Below are positions 4,117 through 39,141 of a stretch of 43,695 bases of DNA, in pieces (the stretch's first letter is position 1; each line of letters begins with the position of its first letter). Origin of the DNA: Caulobacter sp. AP07 (GTDB taxonomy: Bacteria; Pseudomonadota; Alphaproteobacteria; Caulobacterales; Caulobacteraceae); NCBI RefSeq assembly GCF_000281955.1, contig NZ_AKKF01000196.1:1-43695 (forward strand), in the 5' to 3' direction. The notes below the pieces were generated by a model. The model was not told where the DNA came from and did no database searches. It worked only from the letters and a program-made list of their open reading frames with translations. Position numbers and translations under genes: made by a program.

Positions 4117-4149
4117 GGCGGTTGGGGCTGTAGGTGGCCCACTCCCATT

Positions 4150-4240
4150 CGTCATCCCCCGACTTGTTCGGGGGACCCAAGCAGAGTCCGACGCTCTGTC
4201 CAGCGCTGCTTGGGTCCCCCGCATAAAGCGGGGGATGACG
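4150..4240. repeat. Extragenic palindrome, family A copy 1
   Basis: Two hairpins back to back. CGTCATCCCCCGACTTGTTC leads into GGGGGACCCAAGC, and after a 25-base middle GCTTGGGTCCCCC leads into GCATAAAGCGGGGGATGACG. The outer ends are complementary, so the whole unit can fold as a cruciform. It sits between the convergent ends of putR and the CGNR gene. Four more copies lie at 5499, 27525, 36746 and 39051. This copy and the one at 39051 also share flanking sequence. Confidence 0.9.
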
Positions 4241-5498: not shown

Positions 5499-5594
5499 CG
5501 TCATCCCCCGCTTTATGCGGGGGACCCAAGCTGAACATCAGAACAAGAACTGGCCAACGCGGCTTGGGTCCCCCGAACAAGTCGGGGGATGACG
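5499..5594. repeat. Extragenic palindrome, family A copy 2 (inverted)
   Basis: The same unit as at 4150 but in the opposite orientation: the half with CTTTATGCGGGGG comes first and the half with CGAACAAGTCGGGGG last. Outer ends CGTCATCC and GGATGACG and inner ACCCAAGC and GCTTGGGT are conserved; the middle is different. It lies between the convergent lipocalin-like gene and nodT. Confidence 0.9.
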
Positions 5595-5628
5595 AACGTT
5601 GGGGGCTTGGTGAAGGTTGGGCAAGGTT

Positions 5629-24970: not shown

Positions 24971-26509
24971 TCAGTACACGTCCCGCCGATACCGCCCCTC
25001 GTCGGCCAGCCGTTCCACCGCCTCGGCGCCCAGCACCGACACCAGCGCCGCGTGCACGTCGCCCGACATGCCCTCCAGCGAGCCGCAGACATAGATCGCC
25101 GCGCCGTCGGCGACCCAGGCGCGCAGGGTGTCGGCGGCCTGGATCAGGCGGTGCTGGACATAGACCTTGCGGGCCTGGTCGCGGGAGAAGGCCAGGTCCA
25201 GGCGCTCCAGTACGCCGCTGGCCCGCCAGGCTTCGATCTCGCCCTGGTGGAAGTAGTCGTGGGCCTGGGCGCGCTCGCCGAACACCAGCCAGTTGCGGTG
25301 GTGGCCGAGGGCGGCGCGGGCCTTGAGATGCGCCCGCAGGCCGGCCAGGCCGGTGCCGTTGCCGACCAGGATCAGCGGCCGGTCGTCGGCCGGGCCGTGG
25401 AAGCCGCGGTTGGTCCGCACCCGCGCGGCGATCTCGCCGTCCGGCGTGGCGTGGGCGGTCAGCCAGCCCGAGCCGAGGCCTGGCCGGCCGTCGGCCCGCC
25501 GCATCGCCCGCACCAGCAGCTCGACCCCGCCATCGGCCGGCAGCGAGGCGATCGAATATTCGCGGTGCGGCAGGGGCGGCAGGGCGTCGACCAGGGCCTG
25601 GGCCGAGGCGGCGGGCGCGCCGTCCGGGGGCAGGCGTCGCCAGGACAGCACCTCGGCCAGGGTCGCGGCTTCGTCGGCGACCACCGGGGCGGCGGGGTTC
25701 AGGCCCTGGCGCGCCAGCAGCAACGCGACCTCGGCCGGATCGTTGCGCGGCCCGACCTCCAGGATGTCGCCGGCCGCCCAGGCCGCCGCGCCGTCCAGCG
25801 GCTCCAGCCGGATGTGGAACGCCGCGTCGCCGGGGCTGCCGGGGTTCAGCCGCCGCCGCTCGGCCAGCCGCCAGCGGCCGTAGCGCGGGCGGGTCCAGTC
25901 GGGGGCGTCGGTGACGCCGGCCAGCAGGCCGACCTGACCCTGCCAGTGGCGCAGGGCGGCGTCGTCGCCGTCGTCGACCTCGACCCGGTCGAACAGCGGC
26001 GCGGCCCCGTGGTGGGTCAGCCAGGCGTCGAGCGTCCGGCCGAAGGCGCAGAACCGGGCATATTCGCTGTCGCCCAGGGCCAGGACGCCGAAGCTCAGGC
26101 CGTCCAGATGCGGGGTCGCGCCCATCACGTCTCGGATGAAGCGGCGGGCGGTGTCGGGGGCGTCGCCCTCGCCGGTGGTGCTGACCACGAACAGCGCCCG
26201 GCCGGCCCTCGCGAGGTCGGCGGCGGTGACCTCGGCCAGGCTCTTCAGCGTGACCCGCGCGCCGCCGTCGCCCAGCAGCCTGGCGGTGGCCGTGGCCAGC
26301 TCCTCGGCGAAGCCGGTCTGGCTGGCGTGGGCCACCAGGATCGGCGCGCCGGTCCCGGCCGCCAGGGCCTGGGCCGCGCGGAGGACGACGCGGCGGCGGC
26401 CAGCCTCGCGCAGGACGATGACCAGGCAGAACAGCAGATAGACGCCGACCACCAGGCCGGCGACCGCCAGGCGGCGGGTTTCGGGCGCCAAGATCTCGAA
26501 CAGGCTCAT
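24971..26509 (-). CDS. Membrane-anchored flavodoxin/NADPH oxidoreductase (CysJ-like flavoprotein)
   Basis: A 512-residue diflavin-reductase-like protein. One N-terminal transmembrane helix (about residues 13-34, LAVAGLVVGVYLLFCLVIVL) is followed by a flavodoxin domain (about 55-190; ILVAHASQTGFAEELA and STTGEGDAPDTARRF bind FMN). Next come an FAD-binding domain with REYSIASLP and an NADPH-binding domain with LILVGNGTGLAGLRAHL and YVCGSLEGM. The C-terminus RRDVY is typical of the family. It is annotated elsewhere as sulfite reductase flavoprotein, but no sulfite reductase is nearby. The start ATG (26509) overlaps the apbE stop by four bases (ATGA). In this operon it is inferred to supply NADPH electrons to the PepSY membrane protein. 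Confidence 0.9.
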   Translation of the reverse strand: MSLFEILAPETRRLAVAGLVVGVYLLFCLVIVLREAGRRRVVLRAAQALAAGTGAPILVAHASQTGFAEELATATARLLGDGGARVTLKSLAEVTAADLARAGRALFVVSTTGEGDAPDTARRFIRDVMGATPHLDGLSFGVLALGDSEYARFCAFGRTLDAWLTHHGAAPLFDRVEVDDGDDAALRHWQGQVGLLAGVTDAPDWTRPRYGRWRLAERRRLNPGSPGDAAFHIRLEPLDGAAAWAAGDILEVGPRNDPAEVALLLARQGLNPAAPVVADEAATLAEVLSWRRLPPDGAPAASAQALVDALPPLPHREYSIASLPADGGVELLVRAMRRADGRPGLGSGWLTAHATPDGEIAARVRTNRGFHGPADDRPLILVGNGTGLAGLRAHLKARAALGHHRNWLVFGERAQAHDYFHQGEIEAWRASGVLERLDLAFSRDQARKVYVQHRLIQAADTLRAWVADGAAIYVCGSLEGMSGDVHAALVSVLGAEAVERLADEGRYRRDVY

Positions 26510-27498
26510 GCGTCGAGCATCGCCGCCAGGGCCGGCGACAGCCGCTCCTCCAGGCCGCGCGGACCCGCCGCGAGGATCAGGGCGGCCAGGCCGCGCCGGG
26601 CGGCGAAGGCCAGGGCGGCGTCGGGGGCCATCACCGTCAGGGCGGTGGCGTAGGCGTCGGCCCGCATGCAGCTCTCGTGCAGCACGGTGACGCTGACCGC
26701 GCCGCTGGCGCTGGGGGCGGCGGTGGCCGGGTCCAGGGTGTGGGCGTAGCGGCGGCCGTCGTGCTCGAAGAACCGGCGGTAGTCGCCCGAGGTGGCGACG
26801 GCCAGGCCGTGCAGGGCGACCACGGTGCGCAGGCCCTCGTTGGCCACCGGCGGCCGCTCCAGCTCGACCCACCAGGGCTGGCCGTCGGGCTTGGCGCCGG
26901 TCCCGCGCAGCTCGCCGCCGACCTCGACGAGGTAGGCGCGCGCCCCGGCCCGGTCGAGCGCGGCGACCACCTGGTCGACCGCGAAGCCCTTGGCGATCCC
27001 GTTGAGGTCCAGGCGCAGGCCGCCGGGCTGGAACAGGGCGTCGCCGTCGAGCACCAGGCGGCGCCAGCCGGCGGCCTCGCGAACCCGGGCGACGTCGGCG
27101 GCCTGGGGCGGCGCGCCGGAGAACGGGCGGGGGCCAAAGCCCCACAGGTCGACCAGGGCGCCCAGGGTCGGGTCGAAGGCCCCGCCGGTCTGGTCGGCGA
27201 TCTCGACGGCGCAGCGCAGCACCTGGGCGAAGGCCGGGGGCAGGGCGGTCCAGGTGCCGGCGGCGGACCGGTTGTAGCGGCTGAGGTCGGAGAGGGGCTC
27301 CCAGGGGCTCATCTCGCGCACCACGCCGTCCAGCGCACGCTGGGCCATGGCCGTCAGGGCGTCGGCGCTGGCGGTGGGCGGGGCGACCAGCTTGACCGAC
27401 CAGGTCGTGCCCATGGTCTGGCCGGCGAGCGCCAGCACCGCGCCGCCGATCGGGCGGGCGGGGGGCTGGGCCAGTTGGGGGACGAGGACGCGGGTCAT
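26506..27498 (-). CDS. apbE: FAD:protein FMN transferase, ApbE family
   Basis: A 330-residue ApbE-family enzyme that covalently attaches FMN from FAD to a threonine of target proteins. Core motifs are all present: QTMGTTWSVK, MSPWEPLSDLSRYN, GGAFDPTLGALVDLWGFG, LDLNGIAKGFAVDQV, VEVGGELRGTG, ATSGDYRRFFEHDGRRYAHT and SCMRADAYATAL. Most ApbE proteins are exported lipoproteins, but here no lipobox and no convincing signal peptide can be seen at the N-terminus (MTRVLVPQLAQPPARP), which raises the question of compartment. The likely target is the DUF2271 protein encoded 1 kb upstream in the same operon, which contains an ApbE-type motif. Confidence 0.93.
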   Translation of the reverse strand: MTRVLVPQLAQPPARPIGGAVLALAGQTMGTTWSVKLVAPPTASADALTAMAQRALDGVVREMSPWEPLSDLSRYNRSAAGTWTALPPAFAQVLRCAVEIADQTGGAFDPTLGALVDLWGFGPRPFSGAPPQAADVARVREAAGWRRLVLDGDALFQPGGLRLDLNGIAKGFAVDQVVAALDRAGARAYLVEVGGELRGTGAKPDGQPWWVELERPPVANEGLRTVVALHGLAVATSGDYRRFFEHDGRRYAHTLDPATAAPSASGAVSVTVLHESCMRADAYATALTVMAPDAALAFAARRGLAALILAAGPRGLEERLSPALAAMLDA

Positions 27499-27524
27499 TC
27501 AGAGGTTCCAGCTCCCTCCACCGT

Positions 27525-27620
27525 CGTCATCCCCCGACTTGTTCGGGGGACCCAAGCGGCGTTTCCAGGGTGGGCTGGGCCGGCTCGGCTTGGGTCCCCC
27601 GCATGAAGCGGGGGATGACG
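27525..27620. repeat. Extragenic palindrome, family A copy 3, inside an operon
   Basis: Same unit as at 4150 and in the same orientation (GACTTGTTCGG half first, GCATGAAGCGG half last, one base changed in the last loop). It occupies most of the 149-base gap between the DUF4198 gene and apbE, both transcribed leftward. Confidence 0.9.
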
Positions 27621-27647
27621 ACCGTGGGGTGCGTTGGCGTTAGCCGT

Positions 27648-28550
27648 CTAAGGCCGCAGCGCTTCGAGCGTGGCGGTGTAGCTGGCGCTCATGCCGTTCC
27701 CGGCCAGCGCGACGGGGGCCGCCGGTGGCGCGCCAGGAGCGCCCATGCCGGGCATGCCGCCCATGCCGCCGCCGCCCGGGCCCCGGCCGGTCTCGCCCGA
27801 GCGCACCGTGGCGTTCAGCCAGTACATGCCCGCTTCCGGGAAGGTGACCTTGAACGTCCCGTCGGGCCCGGTCTTGACCTTGAAGTCACCGGGCGTGGCG
27901 CGGTAGCGCGAATTGCCGGGAGCCAGGGTCACCTCCAGGTCGGCGGCCGGCTGGCCGTCGAGCAGGAACCTGAAGGTCGCGGCCTCGCCGGCCACCAGGT
28001 CGTTGGGGTGGGTCACCGGGACCAGCTCCAGGCCCTTGCCGGTCGGCTTCAGCACCGTGTCGGTCGGGGCGTCGCGGGTGACGAAGGTCTCGTTGCGGTT
28101 GGAACCCTTGATGGTCTTCAGGTCGGCGGCGCCGGCCGGGACCTGCTTGGCGAAGTCGTCGGCCGACCCGCGGAAGCGCTTGACCTGGCCGTCCTGTGTC
28201 CAGCTGGCCGTGACGCTGCTGGTGACCGAGGCGATCTTCCAGGTGCCGGGCTTGGACAGCTGGACGTCGAAGGTCGAGCGGTACTTGCCGGTCAGGGCGT
28301 TCTGCGTCCGGTCGACCGAACCGTCCGGCGCGTAGACCACCACGCCGTCCAGCCGCATCGGGTTGTGGTCGGCGTAGAACAGCTCGTTGGAAATGGCCGC
28401 GTCGACCGTCACCCAGACGTCGCCCGACAGCACGGTGAACGACGGCACCATCCAGGCGCGGTGGGCGTTGGCGGCGAGCGGCAGGGCCAGGGCCAGGGTC
28501 CCGGCGAGGCCGGCGGCGGCGACGGCGAGAAGGCGCTTGCGGAAGGTCAT
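27648..28550 (-). CDS. Periplasmic DUF4198-domain protein
   Basis: A 300-residue exported protein of the DUF4198 family (PF10670; NikM/CbiM-associated metal-related proteins). A Sec signal peptide ends in LPLAANA, and the next residue is His30, so the predicted mature protein starts with histidine (HRAWMVPS), followed by FTVLSGDVWVTVDAAISNELF. The middle contains LVPVTHPNDLVAGEAATFRF and GDFKVKTGPDGTFKVTFPEAGMYWL, the carboxypeptidase-regulatory-like beta domain. A Gly/Met-rich stretch (GGMGGMPGMG) occurs near the C-terminus. Family members are linked to metal uptake; the metal cannot be told from sequence. It starts 11 bases after the DUF2271 gene. Confidence 0.88.
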   Translation of the reverse strand: MTFRKRLLAVAAAGLAGTLALALPLAANAHRAWMVPSFTVLSGDVWVTVDAAISNELFYADHNPMRLDGVVVYAPDGSVDRTQNALTGKYRSTFDVQLSKPGTWKIASVTSSVTASWTQDGQVKRFRGSADDFAKQVPAGAADLKTIKGSNRNETFVTRDAPTDTVLKPTGKGLELVPVTHPNDLVAGEAATFRFLLDGQPAADLEVTLAPGNSRYRATPGDFKVKTGPDGTFKVTFPEAGMYWLNATVRSGETGRGPGGGGMGGMPGMGAPGAPPAAPVALAGNGMSASYTATLEALRP

Positions 28551-28561
28551 GGCGTTTCTCT

Positions 28562-29074
28562 CTATTTGACGGCGACGGTGACGGCGCCCAGTTCGGCCGT
28601 CCCCTTGGCGGTGGCGGGCTTGCCGGGCTTACCCCAGATGAAGGGGACGCGGACGGCCTCGTGGCCGCCGACCTCGCGGGCCGCCTCGGCCACCAGGGTG
28701 TACTGGCCGGGCGCGAGCTTGGAGAGCGGGCCCTTGGCGCCGCTGAACACCAGCTTCTGCGGACCGGGGGCGCGGGTCGCGCCGCTGATCCCGTCGGCGG
28801 GGAAGCTCATCGAACGGCCGGCCTTGCGCCACCACTGGCGCATGTCCTTCAGCCACTTGGTGCCTTTGTCCTCCTTGGAGTCGGCGTCGTACCAGACGGC
28901 CAGGGTGGCGGCGGCCGAGGCGTCGGGGGCCTCCACCCAGATGGCCACATAGGGCTTGTGGTACTCGGCCACGGTCAGGCGCGGCACCTCGACGGTGACG
29001 GCGAGGTCGGCGGCCATGGTCGGCGTGGCGACGGCGGCGCCGGCAAAGGTCAGCAGGGTCAGGGAACGCTTCAT
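28562..29074 (-). CDS. Periplasmic DUF2271 protein with ApbE-type flavinylation motif
   Basis: A 170-residue exported protein (signal peptide about residues 1-22, cleavage after MAA). The DUF2271 domain covers nearly all of the mature part, with PYVAIWVEAPD, TLAVWYD, KWLKDMRQWWRKAG and LVAEAAREVGGHEAVRVPF. Residues 94-104 read DGISGATRAPG. The stretch D-G-x-S-G-A-T is the pattern recognised by ApbE transferases, and Thr100 would carry FMN by a phosphoester bond. An ApbE gene lies in the same operon. The protein is therefore predicted to be a flavinylated periplasmic electron carrier. A longer upstream reading frame exists, but ATG 29074 gives the signal peptide. Confidence 0.9.
   Translation of the reverse strand: MKRSLTLLTFAGAAVATPTMAADLAVTVEVPRLTVAEYHKPYVAIWVEAPDASAAATLAVWYDADSKEDKGTKWLKDMRQWWRKAGRSMSFPADGISGATRAPGPQKLVFSGAKGPLSKLAPGQYTLVAEAAREVGGHEAVRVPFIWGKPGKPATAKGTAELGAVTVAVK
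28775..28795 (-). other. Predicted FMN attachment motif DGISGAT in the DUF2271 protein
   Basis: These 21 bases encode residues 94-100 (Asp-Gly-Ile-Ser-Gly-Ala-Thr) of the DUF2271 protein. The pattern D-(S/G)-x-(S/T)-(S/G)-A-(T/S) is known from NqrC, RnfG and other ApbE substrates, in which the last residue bears FMN. Thr100 is encoded at 28775-28777. That this site is modified in this protein is inference from the motif and from apbE in the same operon. Confidence 0.6.
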
Positions 29075-29085
29075 GGCGGGGCGCC

Positions 29086-29715
29086 TCACAGGTGGACGAA
29101 CAGGATGACGAGCAGCAGCGGGATCACCAGCCCGCCGGCCACCAGCGGCCAGGTCAGCGGCCGGGCGCGGGCGTGGAACTGCAGCAGGATCAGGCCGGTG
29201 ACCGCGAAGATCGCGCAGGCCCCGGCGAAGATGTCGATGAACCAGCCCCAGGCCTTGCCGGCGTTGCGGCCCTTGTGCAGGTCGTTGAGCAAGGAAACCG
29301 CGCCGCGCGTGGTCTTCTCGTGCTCGACGGCCCCGGTCTCGCGGTCGATGCTGATCCAGGCGTCGCCGCCGGGGCGGGCCAGGGCGACATAGACCTCGGC
29401 GTCGGACCACTCGCCCTCGCGGCGGGCGATGTCGGCGTCGACGGCCCGGTCCAGCCAGGTCTCGACCCGGATCGGCAGCGGATGCTTGCCCTCGGCCGGG
29501 CCCTTGGCCAGCAGGGCCAGCAGGTCGGCGGGCAGGGCCGCCTTGCGGCTGACCACCTGGGGCTTGGCCTCGATCTGGCCGGCGTGGTTGAGGGTGAAGC
29601 CGGTGACCGCGAACAGCAGCATGCCGACCAGGCTCAGCGCGGCGCTGATCCAGTGCCACTGGTGCAGCTGCTTGAGCCAGAACGAACGGCGATGCGGGTC
29701 GGGAGCGGTCTTCAC
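29086..29715 (-). CDS. PepSY-type membrane protein, first gene of the redox operon
   Basis: About 209 residues with three predicted transmembrane helices: one near residues 22-42, one near 160-180 and one at the C-terminus (WPLVAGGLVIPLLLVILF). Between helix 1 and helix 2 is a periplasmic segment with VYVALARPGGDAWISIDRETGAVEHE, the PepSY-like beta region. Histidines flank the first helix (LHQWHWISAAL, His18 and His21; His44 at its end) and precede the second (LNDLHKGR), as in PepSY_TM proteins where they may bind haem. GTG at 29715 is preferred to an ATG at 29805 because the upstream part is not hydrophobic and overlaps a Fur-box-like site. The DUF2271 start lies 11 bases downstream. Confidence 0.82.
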   Translation of the reverse strand: MKTAPDPHRRSFWLKQLHQWHWISAALSLVGMLLFAVTGFTLNHAGQIEAKPQVVSRKAALPADLLALLAKGPAEGKHPLPIRVETWLDRAVDADIARREGEWSDAEVYVALARPGGDAWISIDRETGAVEHEKTTRGAVSLLNDLHKGRNAGKAWGWFIDIFAGACAIFAVTGLILLQFHARARPLTWPLVAGGLVIPLLLVILFVHL

Positions 29716-29759: not shown

Positions 29760-29779
29760 ACTTGAGAACGACTTGCAAG
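29760..29779. promoter_or_regulatory. Fur-box-like sequence upstream of the redox operon
   Basis: The plus-strand sequence ACTTGAGAACGACTTGCAAG resembles the TGAGAAT-GATTTGC type of Fur box, with several AT-to-GC substitutions. It lies about 45 bases upstream of the PepSY start codon. If real, the operon is iron-repressed; the match is imperfect and unscored. Confidence 0.3.
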
Positions 29780-29939: not shown

Positions 29940-30314
29940 TTGCGGAAAATACTGGTCGCGGAGGATGATATCCTCCTGGCGCATATCCATGAAATCACCC
30001 TGCGCGAGGCCGGTTTCGACGTGCTGGTCTGCCGGGACGGCCAGCAGGCGCTGGACGCCCTGGACGCCTTCGATCCTGACCTGCTGATCACCGACTTCAC
30101 GATGCCGCGGATGAACGGCGGCGACCTGATCCGGGCCGTGCGCGGTCGCCGGGGCCGGCGGACGGCCGTGCTGCTGGCCTCGGGCCGCGACGAACACCTG
30201 CTGCGCGACGACGAGCGCGGCGACGCCCGCCTCGAAAAGCCGATCTCGCCGGCCCGCCTGCTGGGCGCGGTGCGGGCGCTGGAAGCACGGCGCCCGGTGC
30301 GGCCGGCGGCCTAG
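29940..30314 (+). CDS. Single-domain response regulator
   Basis: A 124-residue receiver domain with no output domain. Key residues are present: acidic pocket AEDD (residues 7-10), phosphoacceptor Asp52 in LLITDFTMPRMNG, Ser81 in LLASGRD at the switch position, and Lys100 in EKPIS. Stand-alone receivers are common in Caulobacter, where they act by protein-protein contact or as phosphate relays. The start is TTG at 29940, 7 bases after a GGGGG run; an ATG 17 bases upstream is out of frame. It is divergent from the PepSY redox operon. No histidine kinase is adjacent, so its partner is unknown. Confidence 0.85.
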   Translation: MRKILVAEDDILLAHIHEITLREAGFDVLVCRDGQQALDALDAFDPDLLITDFTMPRMNGGDLIRAVRGRRGRRTAVLLASGRDEHLLRDDERGDARLEKPISPARLLGAVRALEARRPVRPAA

Positions 30315-30471: not shown

Positions 30472-31146
30472 ATGGTCCAAAGACACACGAGCCGGCGATC
30501 CTCGCACCTCTGGATCGACACGGTTTGGCAGTCGGTTTGCCTCAGTGACGGGCTGTATTCGGCGACGCCCGACGGCTCGTGGGACTTGATCCGCAGCATC
30601 GCGCCGGACGGCGGATCCATGGTGTTTCTGAGTGGCCAGGCCACCGAGCCCGTCGAGGTGCCGTACAAGGACGGGGAGAGCTCGGTCGTCATCTCCTTCT
30701 CCGCCCATGTCTATCTCGCGTGGGACAGGGAGCCGCGGGTCGGCCCCGAGATCCGAATCCTGCCGGTGCGGGACGAGATGTTCGTGCTGGACGGCGTGGA
30801 CCTGCCGTTGCCGACCTTCGAGAACGTCGAACCGCTGGTCGACGCCATGATCGCGGCCGGCCTGCTGCTCTCCAACGACTTGGTCGCCAGGGCCTTCAGC
30901 GAGACCCCGAAGGCCGCCTCCTCGCGCTCGGTGCAGCAGCATTTCAAGCAGACCACGGGAATCACCCAGAAGAGTTTTCAGATGATCCGCCGCGCGCAGG
31001 AAGCCGTGCGACGGCTGAAGGCCGGCGAAGTTCCGGCCGGGGTGGCGGTCGATCTGGGCTATACGGACCAGCCGCACATGATCAAATCCATCAAGAAGAT
31101 CATGGGCGCTCTGCCCTCGAATCTCGACGCGGTTCACAAGATCTGA
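30472..31146 (+). CDS. AraC-family-like transcriptional regulator
   Basis: A 224-residue protein whose C-terminal third looks like an AraC/XylS double helix-turn-helix: LVARAFSETPKAASSRSVQQHFKQTTGIT is a first-helix region, then KSFQMIRRAQEAVRRLKAGE, then GVAVDLGYTDQPHMIKSIKKIMG, which fits the AraC signature (A-x-x-x-G-Y-x-D-Q-x-H-x-x-x-x-x-K). The N-terminal part (about 1-115) starts with WIDTVWQSVCLSDGLYSATPDGSWDL and has no recognisable ligand domain. It is convergent with an epoxide hydrolase gene; control of that gene is possible but not shown. ATG 30472 has no strong ribosome-binding site. Confidence 0.82.
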   Translation: MVQRHTSRRSSHLWIDTVWQSVCLSDGLYSATPDGSWDLIRSIAPDGGSMVFLSGQATEPVEVPYKDGESSVVISFSAHVYLAWDREPRVGPEIRILPVRDEMFVLDGVDLPLPTFENVEPLVDAMIAAGLLLSNDLVARAFSETPKAASSRSVQQHFKQTTGITQKSFQMIRRAQEAVRRLKAGEVPAGVAVDLGYTDQPHMIKSIKKIMGALPSNLDAVHKI

Positions 31147-31192: not shown

Positions 31193-32404
31193 CTACCTGG
31201 TCAGCAAGGCGGCGAAGGCCTTGATGTCCTGGGTGTAGAAATCGGGGTCTTCCCAGGCCGCGAAGTGGCCCGCCTTTTCCATGTCGTGGAACTGCACGAC
31301 ATTGCCGGCGGTCTGCCGGTTCGCCCATTCGCGGGGCAGGCGCACTCCGCCGGGGATCGGCGCCTCGGTCGCCACCGCGACCGGAACCTTGGTGTTCCGA
31401 CCCTTGATCGTCGGCGCGCTCATGGCGTTCTGATTGTAGAGGCGGAAGGACGACGCGACCGTCTCCGTCAGCCAGTAGATCATGATGTTGGTCAGAAGGT
31501 CGTCGCGGCCGAACCGTGCGTCCGCCTCGTCGCCGACCCCCATGCCGGCCATGAAGCTCATGATCCAGGCGGCCAGCCCGACCGGCGAGTCGTTCATGGC
31601 GAAGGCCAGGCTTTGCGGCTTCGTCGCCTGCACCAGGTTGAAGGCGCCGTGGGCGAAGAACCATTGCTGGATGGCGCCGGCATAGGCCTGCTCGGGGCCG
31701 CTGAGGACGGTGAAGTCGGTGGTCTGGTCGGGATAGCCGACGTCGGTGAGGTGGACGCCCAGCAGCTTGTCGGGATGGCGCTGCGTCAGCGACATGGCGA
31801 TGACTCCACCCAGATCGCCGCCCGCCACGATGAAGCGCTCGTGCCCCAGCACCTTGCCCATCAGCTCGACGAAGATGTCGGCGGTCTGGTCCGCCGGCAG
31901 CGCCGTCCGACCCGAAAAGCCCGTGCCGGGGATGGACGGCACGACGACGTGGAAGTCCTCGGCCAGCGCGTCGATGACCTTGTGATAGCGATAGAAGCTG
32001 TCCGGCCAGCCATGCAGCAGAAGCAGCGCGGGGGCGTCCTTCTTCTTCGAGGGCTTGTGGACGAAGTGCAGGTCGACCTGGTCGATCCTGACCTTGTAGT
32101 TGGGCATTGCGTTCAGCCGCGCCTCGGCCTTGCGCCAGTCGTACTGGTTCAGCCAGTAGTCGGTCAGCGACTTCATGTAGCCGAGATTGGTTCCGAACGT
32201 CCAAGCCGCGTCGGCGGGCTCGTCGGGCCAGCGCGTGTGCTGAAGGCGCGATTTCAGATCGGCCAGTTGCGTGTCCGAAAAGGCGATCTTGAAGGGCGTC
32301 GGCTGTTCCATGGTGTGGCTTTCCTTCGATCGTGCGGGTTGGGTGACAAGGCCGCTCAGGAGGCTCGCCGCGAGGATGTTCTTGCCAAATTCGCGCCGGT
32401 TCAT
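31193..32404 (-). CDS. Exported epoxide hydrolase (alpha/beta hydrolase, EHN family)
   Basis: A 403-residue microsomal-type epoxide hydrolase. The N-terminus MNRREFGKNILAASLLSGLV has a twin-arginine pattern (R-R-E-F-G-K), so Tat export to the periplasm is predicted. The EHN domain follows at about 36-145 (PFKIAFSDTQLADLKSRLQ). The alpha/beta core shows the HGWPDS oxyanion region (131-136), nucleophile Asp197 in AGGDLGG, and a C-terminal catalytic histidine in KAGHFAAWEDPD. The two lid tyrosines expected in this family are plausible in the lid region but not pinned. It probably opens epoxides of environmental or lipid origin. It is convergent with the AraC-type gene. Confidence 0.9.
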   Translation of the reverse strand: MNRREFGKNILAASLLSGLVTQPARSKESHTMEQPTPFKIAFSDTQLADLKSRLQHTRWPDEPADAAWTFGTNLGYMKSLTDYWLNQYDWRKAEARLNAMPNYKVRIDQVDLHFVHKPSKKKDAPALLLLHGWPDSFYRYHKVIDALAEDFHVVVPSIPGTGFSGRTALPADQTADIFVELMGKVLGHERFIVAGGDLGGVIAMSLTQRHPDKLLGVHLTDVGYPDQTTDFTVLSGPEQAYAGAIQQWFFAHGAFNLVQATKPQSLAFAMNDSPVGLAAWIMSFMAGMGVGDEADARFGRDDLLTNIMIYWLTETVASSFRLYNQNAMSAPTIKGRNTKVPVAVATEAPIPGGVRLPREWANRQTAGNVVQFHDMEKAGHFAAWEDPDFYTQDIKAFAALLTR

Positions 32405-38952: not shown

Positions 38953-39050
38953 GCCGAACCGCAATTGCCTAGGTCTTGGGCTAATTCAGAAACGACTTAC
39001 TAGGGGGGCGCCGTCGCGCAGTTGATTTGTCGTTTGCGCCCACCCCCATT

Positions 39051-39141
39051 CGTCATCCCCCGACTTGTTCGGGGGACCCAAGCCGAGTCCGACGCCATGT
39101 CCAGCGCCGCTTGGGTCCCCCGCATAAAGCGGGGGATGACG
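39051..39141. repeat. Extragenic palindrome, family A copy 5
   Basis: Almost identical to the copy at 4150, including the central AGTCCGACGC and GTCCAGCGC and the flanking CCCATT before and TTTTGAGTTGA after the hairpins. It lies between rutB and the histidine kinase gene, both on the minus strand. Confidence 0.92.

Follow-up and report, generated by a model that had tools for sequence, protein, structure and literature searches.

We suggest that an operon of Caulobacter sp. AP07 very likely encodes a PepSY-like flavinylation system, in which a DUF2271 protein loaded by the flavin transferase ApbE passes electrons, probably to ferric iron, under the control of Fur. The operon lies on the minus strand of contig NZ_AKKF01000196.1, of which positions 1 to 43,695 were analysed (43,695 nucleotides, hereafter the window). 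In the scheme that we propose, ApbE would attach flavin mononucleotide (FMN) to Thr100 of DUF2271; electrons from reduced nicotinamide adenine dinucleotide phosphate (NADPH) would pass through a CysJ-like reductase to a heme-bearing PepSY protein and from it to the FMN of periplasmic DUF2271, which would hand them on, probably to ferric iron for uptake, with the operon under Fur control. The electron path, ferric iron as the acceptor and the role of the DUF4198 protein are the parts of this scheme that we infer. The genes in operon order, with the motif codons, are:

29086..29715, minus strand: PepSY_TM-like membrane protein, predicted to bear heme and to conduct electrons across the membrane (PF16357, 269.2 bits, scanned from 29805)
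28562..29074, minus strand: DUF2271 protein, 170 aa by translation (PF10029, 162.2 bits against a curated Pfam cut-off of 27.3)
28775..28795, minus strand: DGISGAT codons, residues 94-100 of DUF2271, with FMN predicted on Thr100 (translated open reading frame; conservation)
27648..28550, minus strand: DUF4198 protein (PF10670, 199.7 bits; found in 80/80 related loci)
26506..27498, minus strand: ApbE, flavin adenine dinucleotide (FAD):protein FMN transferase, 330 aa (PF02424, 279.1 bits)
24971..26509, minus strand: flavodoxin/FAD/NAD(P)H reductase, CysJ-like, predicted cytosolic electron donor (PF00258 and PF00175 above cut-off)

An earlier sequence-only reading had placed DGISGAT at residues 94-100 of the DUF2271 protein and an ApbE gene in its operon, and both are borne out: the frame from 29074 down to 28562 carries the motif from residue 94, with Thr100 as its last residue, and apbE lies two genes downstream. 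The protein fits the D-x-x-[ST]-G-A-[ST] motif of ApbE-flavinylated proteins, and when the window was read from stop to stop, it was the only one of the 183 frames with 100 codons or more (53,313 residues) to carry the strict form, which arises in 0.17% of 100,000 shuffles of the DUF2271 protein. Its N-terminus, MKRSLTLLTFAGAAVATPTMA|AD, resembles a Sec-type signal peptide (signal peptides and anchors were judged by eye throughout), and the 73 readable N-termini of 80 orthologues have an AxA-like site in 69 cases and a twin-arginine translocation (Tat) motif in none. The AlphaFold2 model consists mainly of beta strands, with a mean predicted local distance difference test score (pLDDT) of 81.2; the motif stretch is modelled with low confidence, at pLDDT 65 and 67 in the blocks 81-90 and 91-100.

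Across the window sequence and 80 orthologues from named genomes (n=81), Thr100 and Gly95 are found in all 81, Asp94 in 79, Ala99 in 76 and Gly98 in 68, with the strict motif present in 65. A more varied set of 76 DUF2271 domains, taken from genomes of the alphaproteobacterial class and including the window, comprises 60 separate and 16 ApbE-fused domains; two of the former (G300 and one of G329) sit at contig ends and are possibly cut fusions. The acceptor position is Ser or Thr in 76/76 of these domains, while the strict motif occurs in 18/60 separate domains and 0/16 fused ones; common variants are SSAT (14) and SGPT (10), joined by TRPS (3) among the fusions. Selection thus holds the acceptor residue of DUF2271 rather than the complete motif. 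The anticipated conservation of the motif beside ApbE therefore stands for the acceptor, while the strict form is kept only in part.

That ApbE modifies DUF2271 has been published. In the text of Meheust et al. 2021 (PMC8238504), consulted without its figures and supplements, ApbE flavinylates DUF2271 at a conserved [S/T]GA[S/T] (282 proteins in the logo), and for a purified protein of Amantichitinum ursilacus the flavin was attached in E. coli by the cognate ApbE, a modification that a Thr-to-Ala change abolished. Covalent FMN on Thr100, as the sequence-only reading had predicted, is therefore the best-supported reading by analogy with this homologue. The same paper means that the modification can no longer be called unknown, and that the sequence-only reading was wrong to take it as new. 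Our motif result is a confirmation of a published finding in a further Caulobacter-like genome.

Co-occurrence points the same way, in agreement with what had been expected from the sequence. Within the class, 15/15 genomes with DUF2271 above cut-off carry ApbE, against 82/289 overall (hypergeometric P 2.3e-9), and within the family 58/58 against 66/119. ApbE lies within 5 kb of 75/76 DUF2271 domains, the remaining one being close to a contig end. Of 586 relatives found, 80 related operons were kept; all 80 have PepSY and DUF4198, 72 have ApbE and 58 the reductase. Four of the eight operons without ApbE (L157, L180, L220 and L234) are on contigs that end close by; the other four, from Serpens (L198), Pseudomonas (L222 and L224) and Stutzerimonas (L230), belong to genomes that all have an ApbE elsewhere. 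In a phylum-wide sample of 40 loci, chosen from 68 above-cut-off matches, ApbE was present within the fetched stretch at 21/40 DUF2271 loci; the motif was unreadable in 8/40, and motif counts from this sample were not used.

The partner genes agree with the proposed scheme. The histidines of the PepSY protein are kept almost throughout (His147 in 81/81, His208 in 80, His21 in 79, His181 in 78 and His44 in 75), as the heme model for this family would lead one to expect. The operon ApbE aligns to the solved ApbEs 5mgy and 6nxi and keeps His253 and Asp281; we read these as equivalent to the catalytic His and Asp named in the part of the review PMC12052999 that we drew on. In the reductase, whose ATG overlaps the apbE stop and whose N-terminal stretch is hydrophobic, PF00667 falls slightly below cut-off (scanned from 26503), and the protein is CysJ-like by NCBIfam, also below cut-off. 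DUF4198 is called secreted in the published PepSY-like clusters (PMC8238504, main text). With PepSY, DUF2271, ApbE and DUF4198 clustered, the gene set of the PepSY-like flavinylation system is present, and the operon is a member of it.

Unexpectedly, and unnoticed in the sequence-only reading, the operon ApbE has no visible export signal. An in-frame TGA directly precedes the ATG of the operon ApbE, and in its N-terminus, MTRVLVPQLAQPPARPIGGAVLALAGQT, no signal peptide, lipobox or anchor and no evident h-region were seen; at its start, MTRVLVPQLAQPPARPIGGAVLALAGQTMGTTWS, no hydrophobic core, lipobox or twin arginine is evident. The same was found in relatives: no signal in the 29 ApbEs inspected from the same family (window included), nor in 12 of the 13 ApbEs of separate-gene operons in the class, one being ambiguous (L041). 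Of the 72 ApbEs from related operons one, with a misread start (L159), was excluded, and 69 of the remaining 71 lack a signal, the exceptions being two from Lysobacter (L200 and L221); seven of the 71 (L189, L190, L197, L201, L207, L212 and L216), for which the scored range contained no start codon, were read by eye only. In the phylum sample, 20/21 had no signal in the 50 residues inspected before the domain, the true start being unsure in the long frames of L249, L250 and L255, and the exception was lipoprotein-like. As controls we took 20 ApbEs of the same class away from DUF2271, not at random but near the top of the match list with DUF2271 neighbours removed; 19/20 have a signal or anchor. 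Simple hydropathy splits the two sets of ApbEs only roughly.

The N-terminal segment of the operon ApbEs has a pattern of its own. An RVL[IV]P-like sequence ([RK][VIT][LFAV][IVLY][PA]) occurs in 61/71 readable cases, often followed by prolines; in the window this N-terminus spans 27415-27498, and it perhaps serves in docking.

A tree of 70 chosen ApbEs, from which the phylum-sample proteins were left out, groups all 46 ApbEs of separate-gene DUF2271 operons, the window included, behind a single branch (support 96/89). One pseudomonad ApbE, which is also near a second DUF2271, joins this group, and the five rows of fused ApbEs branch off separately. Since the two signal-bearing Lysobacter ApbEs are nested within the operon group, ApbE seems, on this phylogeny, to have changed sides of the membrane within one lineage while keeping its target. 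Such a change is what one would expect if the target can receive its flavin on both sides.

In most inspected operons, then, the membrane seemingly separates the enzyme that attaches the flavin from the exported protein that receives it. FAD is synthesised in the cytosol. The combination of an ApbE without a visible export signal and a DUF2271 protein with a Sec-like one suggests that FMN may be added to the unfolded DUF2271 precursor in the cytosol, before Sec export, a proposal to which we give about even odds. ApbE can load a seven-residue peptide tag (review PMC12052999, in part), which makes it plausible that an unfolded precursor would serve as substrate. In its fuller form, in which a DUF2271-dedicated ApbE lineage would load FMN from cytosolic FAD and the flavin-bearing chain would then thread the Sec channel, we hold the idea tentatively, at slightly under even chances. 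We prefer loading before export to an unrecognised export route for ApbE. If it is correct, carriers would take their covalent flavins with them across the membrane, a point relevant to how periplasmic flavoproteins obtain their FAD-derived cofactor. Export of FAD would be unneeded, contrary to the view that periplasmic carriers are flavinylated outside the cytosol.

The strongest competitor, which we consider rather unlikely but still a serious contender, is that the signal-less operon ApbE enters the periplasm in some uncharacterised way, with its RVLxP-like N-terminus (61/71) in targeting or docking, and flavinylates DUF2271 there in keeping with the textbook view. A membrane-anchored, periplasmic ApbE is typical according to the consulted part of the review (PMC12052999). 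Three observations speak for modification in the periplasm: the signals on the Lysobacter operon ApbEs L200 and L221; the A. ursilacus ApbE, made as a signal-peptide-truncated construct (PMC8238504, main text) and so seemingly signal-bearing in its native form, which also speaks against a signal-less ApbE as a general rule; and the lipoprotein-like ApbE found elsewhere in each of the four genomes without an ApbE in the operon. Because of these cases, such modification of DUF2271 seems possible. Against such a route for the operon enzyme stand the lack of any signal-like stretch before the domain in 69/71 operon ApbEs and an N-terminus that is proline-rich and possibly as short as 14-17 residues (L246, L248, L251 and L252).

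It is improbable that the signal-less ApbE acts on a different, cytosolic protein, leaving the DUF2271 motif with little or no flavin in the source organism. There is a known cytosolic ApbE whose target is a soluble fumarate reductase (PMC12052999, in part), but a search of the source genome gave a single ApbE and a single DUF2271, two genes apart, and the strict motif occurs in 0/59 reductases, 0/81 DUF4198 proteins, 0/73 ApbEs and 1/81 PepSY proteins of the operons, a screen that covered these proteins and the window frames but not the cytosolic proteins of the genome at large. Moreover, 18 operons with no reductase found in the locus keep an ApbE that we read as signal-less (L166 and L207 being near contig ends), and the ApbEs of separate-gene DUF2271 operons cluster in the tree (96/89). 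A chance match of the motif in a loop, to which the degenerate motif of many relatives and the low-confidence modelled loop might point, is highly implausible given the invariance of Thr100 and Gly95 and the near-invariance of Asp94 and Ala99, and was refuted at family level by the Thr-to-Ala test on the homologue (PMC8238504, main text).

Two further elements lie within or ahead of the operon:

29760..29778, minus strand: conserved block TTGCAAGTCGTTCTCAAGT, Fur-box-like, ahead of the operon (aligned upstream regions)
27508..27637, no strand: intergenic inverted repeat in the DUF4198-apbE gap (arms of 50 nt, 80% complementary)

The block TTGCAAGTCGTTCTCAAGT, which we take to resemble the Fur box of alphaproteobacteria, recurs with minor variation in 11/12 aligned Caulobacter-like upstream regions, window included, and could not be placed in L163. 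Since it falls inside the longer PepSY frame, translation of PepSY probably starts at GTG 29715 rather than at ATG 29805. The inverted repeat belongs to a palindromic intergenic repeat of roughly 100-130 bp, with window copies at 27508-27637, 4149-4240, 5499-5595 and 39050-39141. Scoring 40 of 168 candidates across the genome gave about 40 related sites, so that there are perhaps more. Divergent from the operon is a stand-alone response-regulator receiver protein (29940-30314, TTG start; PF00072, 58.5 bits). A regulator with a C-terminal helix-turn-helix (30472-31146; PF12833 HTH_18) stands beside an epoxide-hydrolase-like gene (31193-32404).

Among known systems, the closest are the PepSY-like clusters of Meheust et al. 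(PMC8238504), which likewise bring together PepSY (PF16357), DUF2271 (2833 clusters), DUF4198 (1500) and ApbE; a subset is NAD-linked, and Fur regulation is described in Shewanella and Caulobacter. DUF2271 is elsewhere described as a small soluble domain of distinct fold (2024; PMC11334425) and as a member of the immunoglobulin-like superfamily, with fusions noted (2020; PMC7190382), in the parts of these papers we drew on. The flavin-carrying DUF2271 of an iron-reduction system is thus already known. What looks new is an ApbE without a visible export signal although its DUF2271 target is predicted to be exported: in the main text of PMC8238504 flavinylation takes place outside the cytosol and signal-less operon ApbEs go unmentioned, and no statement on them was found in the literature searched, figures and supplements aside.

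Caulobacter crescentus encodes these five products in an identical arrangement (CC_3059-3063, CCNA_03155-03159), with no difference in gene content noticed, and the C. vibrioides DUF2271 (P0090) is 81% identical to that of the window. In the consulted portions of the respective papers, CC_3059-3063 are upregulated, two columns of a table giving 12- to 51-fold, in the context of iron limitation and a fur mutant (PMC3751524), and insertions in CCNA_03155-03159 reduce fitness in ethylenediaminetetraacetic acid (EDTA; PMC11870441).

The cytosolic ApbE of Klebsiella pneumoniae (PMC12052999, in part) also lacks a signal peptide, but there enzyme and target, a soluble fumarate reductase, are both intracellular, whereas the target of the window operon has a Sec-like signal. 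In the fused DUF2271 domains (L013, L117, L120, L122-L127 and L129-L134), Arg, Lys or His stands at the expected Gly in 14/16 and Pro replaces Ala in 11/16, as in the acceptor sites TRPS, AKPT and THPT. ApbE-DUF2271 fusions (published RUL87804.1; 16 domains found) combine the same two domains and keep a Ser or Thr acceptor in 16/16, but unlike the separate-gene operons they have a signal-like stretch ahead of ApbE (14/14 inspected of 16) and no strict motif, and their ApbEs branch apart.
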